Origin: Clostridia bacterium
GTDB lineage: Bacteria; Bacillota; Clostridia; TANB77; CAG-508
Assembly (NCBI GenBank): GCA_017528085.1
Contig: JAFXPH010000011.1
Coordinates: 124,001 to 188,000, forward strand
Direction: 5' to 3'
DNA: 64,000 nt
A program made the translations under genes and the position numbers. The notes under the pieces are model-generated. The model had not been told where the DNA came from and searched no databases. It saw only the letters and a list, made by a program, of their open reading frames with translations. This document shows, one piece after another, positions 25,427-27,206 of the stretch. Position 1 is the first letter of the stretch. Every line of letters starts with the position of its first letter.

Positions 25427-25456
25427 TTGACATAATATTCCAAGCGATGTTATAAT
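25427..25456 (+). promoter_or_regulatory. argH promoter
   Basis: Consensus TTGACA at 25427-25432 and TATAAT at 25451-25456, 18 bp apart. Confidence 0.75.
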
Positions 25457-25479
25457 ATTATTAGTTTAATATTTAAAAC

Positions 25480-25818
25480 GTTGATTGAGAGAGTAAGATT
25501 GTAATCAAGCTTTAGCGAGTCAGAGATTGGTGAAAGTCTGATAGTAAGAGACAATTTGAAAAGAACTCATGAGTGATTATCGGAATAAAATAGTATGATA
25601 ATACGTATCGTCCGCGTTAAGGATAAGATGAGTGATTTATATTAATAAAAAGATATAAATAATTAGAGTGGTATCGTGCATAAAGCATCTCTTGAGAAAG
25701 AGATGCTTTTTTGATTCTTATTATTTAATTGTTTAAACTTTTTTTAAATATAAGTAATTAGAGTGGCACCACGCTTACATAAAGGCGTCTCTTATTTTTA
25801 AGAGATGTCTTTTTTTTA
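25480..25818 (+). promoter_or_regulatory. T-box leader of argH with two antiterminator/terminator modules
   Basis: Stem I is recognisable from GAGAGAGTAA (about 25487), GCGAGTCAGAGATTGGTG and AAGTCTGATAG, then GAAA before the specifier. The specifier reads AGA (Arg) at 25562-25564, followed by ACTCATGAGT, in the usual position relative to that conserved segment. Module 1: AGAGTGGTATCGTGC (25665-25679), then terminator AAGCATCTCTT / AAGAGATGCTTTTTT (25683-25712). Module 2: GAGTGGCACCACGC (25761-25774), then terminator GGCGTCTCTT / AAGAGATGTC with T8 (25784-25818). No second Stem I fits in the 50 bp between the two modules. An uncharged tRNA-Arg should promote read-through. Confidence 0.9.
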
Positions 25819-25838: not shown

Positions 25839-27206
25839 ATGGAATTATGGAAAGGAAGATTTGCAAAAGAATTAAGTCCAATTACTAACAATTTTAATCA
25901 ATCTATAGGTATTGACAAAAGAATGTATAAAGTAGATATTGAAGGTTCAATTGCACATACTAAGATGCTTGAAAAACAAAAAATAATAACAAAAGAAGAT
26001 CAAAAACAAATTGAAAAAGGTCTTAAAGAAATATTAAAAGAGATAGAAGAAGGAAAGACTGTAATTAACTCAAATAGTGAAGATATTCATACGTTTATCG
26101 AAGAGACTTTAACTAATAAAATAGGAGATGCTGGAAAGAAAATGCATACAGCGCGTTCAAGAAATGATCAAGTAGCATTGGATATTAGAATGTATTTAAA
26201 AGAGGAAACACAAGATTTAATATTGGATTTAAAGAAGCTTATTAAAAGTTTAATTGATAAAGCTAAAAATAATCTGTATACTATAATGCCCGGATACACT
26301 CATATGCAAAGAGCTCAACCAATTACATTTGCCCATTATCTTATGGCATATGTAGAAATGTTTTTAAGAGATATTACAAGACTTGAAAATACATACCAAG
26401 AAATTAATGTTATGCCTCTTGGCTCATGTGCACTTGCTGGAACTACATATGATTTAGACAGAGAATATGTAAAGGAAGAATTAGGTTTTGATGATATTAC
26501 ATACAATTCATTAGATGGAGTTTCAGATAGAGATTTTGTTATAGATTTGGAAAGTAATTTGTCAATAGTTATGATGCATCTATCAAGATTTTCAGAAGAG
26601 ATGGTTTTATGGTGTTCATGGGAATTTAAGTTTATTGAATTAGATGATAGCTATTCAACAGGTTCATCAATTATGCCTCAAAAGAAAAATCCAGATATAA
26701 CAGAGCTAATTAGAGGAAAAACAGGAAGAGTATATGGAAATCTAATTCAAGGATTAACAATGATGAAATCTCTTCCTCTTGCATATAATAAAGATATGCA
26801 AGAAGATAAAAAAGCTATATTTGATTCAATTGATACAGTAAAAGCTTGCATAATTACATTAATTCCAATGATTGATACAATGACAATTTTAAAGGATAAT
26901 ATGGAACTTGCAGCCAAAAAAGGATTTATAAATGCTACTGATTGTGCAGATTATTTAAGCAAAAAAGGAATGCCATTTAGAGATGCTTATAAGTTAACTG
27001 GAGAAATAGTAAAGTATGCAATTGATAATGACAAAGTATTAGATACAATATCAATTGAGAAGTATAAAGAATTTTCGAAACTATTTGAAGATGATTTGTA
27101 TGATGAGATATCACTTAAAACTTGTATAGAAAAAAGAAATGTTATAGGCGGACCAGCGCCTGAAGCTGTGAAAAAAGAAATTGATATTGCACTAAAGAAA
27201 ATATAA
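25839..27206 (+). CDS. argH: Argininosuccinate lyase
   Basis: This 455-residue enzyme cleaves argininosuccinate to arginine and fumarate, the last step of arginine synthesis. The family signature GSSIMPQKKNPD lies at about 270, and HTARSRNDQVALD lies at about 103. Start ATG 25839 (MELWKGRF) follows AAAGGGGG; an upstream ATG at 25818 falls in the terminator tail. It is under T-box (Arg, AGA) control. No argG or other arg gene is next to it in this window. Confidence 0.95.
   Translation: MELWKGRFAKELSPITNNFNQSIGIDKRMYKVDIEGSIAHTKMLEKQKIITKEDQKQIEKGLKEILKEIEEGKTVINSNSEDIHTFIEETLTNKIGDAGKKMHTARSRNDQVALDIRMYLKEETQDLILDLKKLIKSLIDKAKNNLYTIMPGYTHMQRAQPITFAHYLMAYVEMFLRDITRLENTYQEINVMPLGSCALAGTTYDLDREYVKEELGFDDITYNSLDGVSDRDFVIDLESNLSIVMMHLSRFSEEMVLWCSWEFKFIELDDSYSTGSSIMPQKKNPDITELIRGKTGRVYGNLIQGLTMMKSLPLAYNKDMQEDKKAIFDSIDTVKACIITLIPMIDTMTILKDNMELAAKKGFINATDCADYLSKKGMPFRDAYKLTGEIVKYAIDNDKVLDTISIEKYKEFSKLFEDDLYDEISLKTCIEKRNVIGGPAPEAVKKEIDIALKKI

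Follow-up and report, generated by a model that had tools for sequence, protein, structure and literature searches.

T-boxes in which a single tRNA-binding arm precedes two terminators raise the question of how one arm could control both, which is listed in the field as an open question; these "partially tandem T-boxes" have been named in a review as of unknown mode of action (PMC7583486). Such a leader is found before argH in the window, the whole 64,000-nucleotide stretch analysed here (G000:C5:124001-188000, from a 1.64-Mb draft genome in 16 contigs). It consists of one Stem I with one Arg specifier, followed by two antiterminator/terminator modules, and it belongs to this already known kind; its design is not unique. 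T-boxes with duplicated terminator-antiterminator elements were reportedly described by Vitreschak and colleagues in 2008.

Layout of the argH leader

The following parts were located on the forward strand:

25427..25456 (+), putative sigma-70-type promoter, read from the sequence: TTGACA at 25427-25432, 18-nt spacer, TATAAT at 25451-25456
25472..25578 (+), Stem I, with the distal-loop motif GATTGGTGAAAG at 25525-25536 (Rfam RF00230 alignment)
25562..25564 (+), specifier AGA (Arg), within TTTGAAAAGAACTC (Rfam alignment)
25630..25664 (+), module 1 latch: GAGTG, Stem III (25635-25660, 9 bp) and AA; RRRxG-Stem III-AA match, 0/200 shuffles
25665..25692 (+), antiterminator 1: AGAG at 25665, bulge UGGUAUC at 25669-25675, A2 helix GUGC/GCAU, CUCU at 25689-25692
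25682..25712 (+), terminator 1 hairpin with U-tract: -14.1 kcal/mol (25684-25711), z -3.8, equalled by 0/200 shuffles
25717..25754 (+), weak Stem III-like hairpin of module 2: no RRRxG purine string, -2.9 kcal/mol, z -0.5
25760..25792 (+), antiterminator 2: AGAG at 25760, bulge UGGCACC at 25764-25770, A2 helix ACGC/GCGU, CUCU at 25789-25792
25782..25817 (+), terminator 2 hairpin with U-tract: -17.5 kcal/mol (25778-25816), z -7.6, equalled by 0/200 shuffles
25839..27206 (+), argH (argininosuccinate lyase, 455 aa), the regulated gene: open frame starting 22 nt past terminator 2

Rfam RF00230 matched a single T-box (25472-25695, + strand) at 119.9 bits (gathering score 93) and over the full model (1-219). 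Stem I, the distal loop, the specifier AGA, the region after Stem II and Stem III are all in place, and AGA (Arg) fits the downstream argH. Both modules fold, the antiterminator and terminator helices being mutually exclusive in each. These results bear out the preliminary description, which had reported one Stem I, one AGA specifier and two modules before argH, an AGAG paired with CTCT in each module (AGAG 25665 with CUCU 25689-25692, AGAG 25760 with CUCU 25789-25792) and a differing discriminator partner N, which is U in the bulge of module 1 (UGGUAUC) and C in that of module 2 (UGGCACC). The feature had been placed at 25480-25818; its layout stands, and its start is better set at about 25463 (the inferred transcription start) or at 25472 (Stem I).

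No second Stem I was found in the window leader, neither upstream (Rfam) nor between the modules, where the 47-nt spacer leaves no room; the AGAG-to-AGAG distance from module 1 to module 2 is 95 nt. With its single Rfam match and this short spacer, the leader is not a fully tandem T-box, in which every unit has a complete sensor including its own Stem I, although both kinds have two regulated terminators in series, for which a multiplicative response is expected. Fully tandem T-boxes are common, for example in thrS and trp operons (PMC12452182). The argH leader shares with the transcriptional T-box of RF00230 the Stem I with specifier, Stem III, the UGGN bulge, the competition of antiterminator and terminator and an amino-acid gene downstream, and differs from it in having the antiterminator/terminator part twice. 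Like other partially tandem T-boxes it has a single Stem I followed by two antiterminator/terminator elements; it differs from these in the gene downstream (argGH in the relatives, argH here) and in that module 2 of the genus has no clear Stem III latch. At the other seven T-boxes of the window genome no second close T-box motif was found.

Inheritance and conservation of the second module

To place the leader among its relatives, argH was followed through the 53 genomes of the genus. It is present in eight of them, the window's included (other ArgH matches, with E of ~1e-4 to 1e-7, are distant paralogues and were left out), and in all seven others a T-box precedes argG-argH. Three of these leaders have a double module (G018, G050 and G027, spacing 103-108 nt, or 95-108 nt with the window included), and four have a single one (G033, G009, G022, G049). 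The preliminary description had held that the interpretation would fall if module 2 could not form in relatives or if these had a second Stem I; module 2 forms in the three named, and a second Stem I is absent from all eight argGH/argH leaders of the genus, each double-module leader giving one T-box match with Rfam. A promoter-like sequence matching that of the window lies at the same place in G018 and G050. Six relatives have AGA at the position aligned with the window's specifier; G033 (L136, reverse strand) has AGG, so that tRNA-Arg(CCU), or UCU by wobble, would be expected to be read there.

A search for two close T-box motifs matched in 4 of 390 genomes of the family, all four being Arg T-boxes before argGH or argH, and the reversed control pattern matched in none. 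Outside the genus, 80 loci of ArgH relatives yielded no T-box pair and one weak isolated motif. The double-module architecture is inherited from an argGH leader of this genus. To account for the double leaders, the ArgH tree requires two changes, such as a single gain plus a loss in G033. To judge from its assembly, the window genome no longer has argG: nothing in it matched the ArgG of the genus, and PF00764 gave a sub-cut-off match only. As a result, argH lies directly behind the leader. The window argH (25839-27206) also has a long branch in the ArgH tree (0.48 changes per site).

The second module has been well kept. Its T-box 14-mer is identical at 13-14 of 14 positions among G000, G018/G050 and G027, although at fourfold argH sites these species share only 30-43% identity (binomial P 1.6e-6 to 4.8e-5 for the 14-mer), in a sample in which two of the relatives are near-copies and the motif search favours intact second modules. 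Decayed second modules are not simply hidden by that search, since all eight genus leaders were read by eye. Across 11 modules, two-sided changes exceed those of shuffled and slid controls both in the A2 antiterminator helix, one example being ACG/CGU versus GUG/CAC, and in the terminator helix. A second motif arising by chance was considered and rejected on the reversed-pattern controls, the conservation and the covariation. Conversion between the two modules could also keep module 2 like module 1.

What the two modules may sense

The reading that we incline to, by a modest measure, is that of a partially tandem transcriptional Arg T-box whose two modules act as a series gate, probably weakened in the window copy. 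RNA polymerase would have to clear both terminators in series and, as both must be passed, readthrough would be the product of two decisions. With arginine plentiful both terminators would form, and leakage would come to roughly two small leaks multiplied together. An uncharged tRNA-Arg(UCU), held by Stem I, would pair its ACCA end with bulge 1, and once polymerase is past terminator 1 bulge 2 would have to be offered either this tRNA or a freshly bound one. The predicted effect for argGH is a tighter OFF state and a steeper response. We infer such AND-gate behaviour. Two terminators in series can only multiply, so that a lower basal level and a steeper response are the safest reading. The genus provides a small natural series of argGH leaders that are closely related, have either one module or two, and share their Stem I and a tRNA discriminator that is known; the question of one arm and two terminators is therefore directly testable.

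In a search that left the discriminator free, with genes counted by hand from the listing, 37 tRNA-Arg(UCU) genes were found in 36 genomes of the genus and all have A73, as do all tRNA-Arg(CCU) genes of the genus, that of the window genome included. The gene for tRNA-Arg(UCU) is absent from the window's own draft assembly, and for this reason a G73 in the window species has to be considered, although it is unlikely. Against the A73 of the genus, UGGU of module 1 fits and UGGC of module 2 mismatches, and in the relatives G018, G050 and G027 UGGU is found in both modules. The bulge of module 1 deviates elsewhere: among 49 T-box motifs in 31 relatives, AUC in place of ACC occurs in only two, one of them that of window module 1. 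In the antiterminator model of B. subtilis tyrS, the same C-to-U change serves as a variant with reduced function. With argG lost and two deviant bulges, weakened control in the window species is likely, and we consider the device there probably weakened.

A rival reading, that the window leader as a whole is decaying after the loss of argG, with the deviant bulges as drift and the switch poor or dead, has a little less than an even chance. The absence of argG, the directly adjoining argH, its long branch, the rare AUC bulge and the mismatch of UGGC with A73 all speak for it. However, both terminators and both antiterminators still fold, neither the promoter nor Stem I is damaged, argH has an open frame, and a leader of another family, L190 before an asnA-like gene, has the identical bulge pair (UGGUAUC first, UGGCACC second). 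Decay of this sort concerns the window copy alone and is compatible with a series gate in the relatives. The bulge pair shared with L190 is possibly a coincidence. AUC recurs in L179, again in module 1; no second module has it.

For the genus as a whole, two points bear on whether module 2 reads tRNA: the conserved bulge says yes, and the missing latch says perhaps not. Throughout the genus, the RRRxG-Stem III-AA latch (described in PMC7583486) is perfect in all first modules and all single modules; it was not found in module 2 of G000 and G027, and in module 2 of G018 and G050 it is weak (4 bp, shuffle 0.08-0.10). As an antiterminator without Stem III hardly binds tRNA (PMC7583486), module 2 may fall short of a full tRNA sensor. 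The double leaders of the genus have no clear complete discriminator (RRRxG-Stem III-AA plus antiterminator) in the second unit; several double leaders elsewhere have one, and the definition of partially tandem T-boxes, as we understand it, does not call for it. Elsewhere in the phylum, second modules keep the latch in L179-L182, L188, L193 and L195.

These latch data are what would be expected if module 2 were mainly a tRNA-insensitive back-up attenuator, in which competition of antiterminator and terminator would persist and set a fixed partial readthrough, leaving module 1 alone to sense arginine. We regard this as rather unlikely, as module 2 has retained the UGGNACC bulge in all four species, whose divergence is near saturation, and we know of no role for this bulge beyond tRNA pairing and latch structure. 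More doubtful still is a version of the series gate in which one tRNA, anchored by Stem I, would be passed from module 1 to module 2 after terminator 1, in a two-step re-check of charging that uses no canonical Stem III latch. This hand-over, which we infer as one possible route, would differ from two independent switches in that the charging state of the same tRNA is checked twice.

That module 2 is the functionless remnant of a complete second T-box minus its Stem I is quite improbable: fully tandem T-boxes are common (PMC12452182) and L193 has a double module followed by a complete T-box, yet no relative has a trace of Stem I in the 47-nt spacer, the spacing stays within 95-108 nt and module 2 is conserved far above neutral. 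The proposal in the preliminary description that the modules recognise two tRNA-Arg isoacceptors with different discriminators, to which the differing N of the window modules (U, C) had given rise, fails on identification of these discriminators and is hardly credible, since every tRNA-Arg(UCU) and tRNA-Arg(CCU) gene found in the genus has A73, U stands in both modules of the relatives, 16 of 17 other double leaders in the phylum survey have an equal N in both modules, and a single specifier selects one anticodon.

Double-module leaders in the phylum and a small ORF before argG

The double-motif pattern was found in 16 of 398 sampled phylum genomes, including the window's, with the reversed control at zero. 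The preliminary description had called partially duplicated T-boxes known but rare; known they are (PMC7583486), and their rarity is relative at ~4% of sampled phylum genomes. The layout recurs: beyond that of the window there are at least 17 more sites, in 15 of 397 other phylum genomes, at which single-Stem-I double-module leaders precede other genes. Assigned by eye from the downstream frames, these genes resemble phenylacetate-CoA ligase, sodium:solute symporters, DAHP synthase, ABC binding proteins, asnA and, in another family, argG. A T-box over the gathering score was found at 13 of the 17 loci, and two T-boxes at L193 only. Recurrence in 15 other genomes, before aromatic, Asn, Arg and transport genes, is as expected if the layout is useful. 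The leader before the argG of another family (L191) is an apparently independent Arg double-module leader with the likely specifier CGC and UGGC in both modules.

A separate feature was observed in 13 genomes from six genera of the family (L196-L208), where a conserved small ORF of 19-40 codons lies between the Arg T-box terminator and argG. All 13 ORFs stand behind an Arg T-box motif and 15-70 nt 5' of argG, and they share the core Y-K/E-K-F/Y-x-Y-S-G-W-x-K-R-R (YSGWxKRR), with synonymous changes at Tyr, Gly and Lys codons and with AGT, CGA and AGA invariant. The YSGWxKRR ORF is absent from the window. It looks like an arginine leader peptide, none of which was found in the literature searched; if it is one, argGH would be under a second, translation-based control. 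A general anti-Shine-Dalgarno role for it was rejected, as this holds in a minority of the sequences only (4/13), the duplex not being significant in the other nine. In the four (L199, L200, L201 and L207), the argG Shine-Dalgarno region finds its complement in codons of the Phe-Tyr-Ser region or in the Pro-Lys codons, an arrangement that resembles a translational attenuator, and the duplex reaches -9 to -15 kcal/mol (shuffle p 0-0.04).
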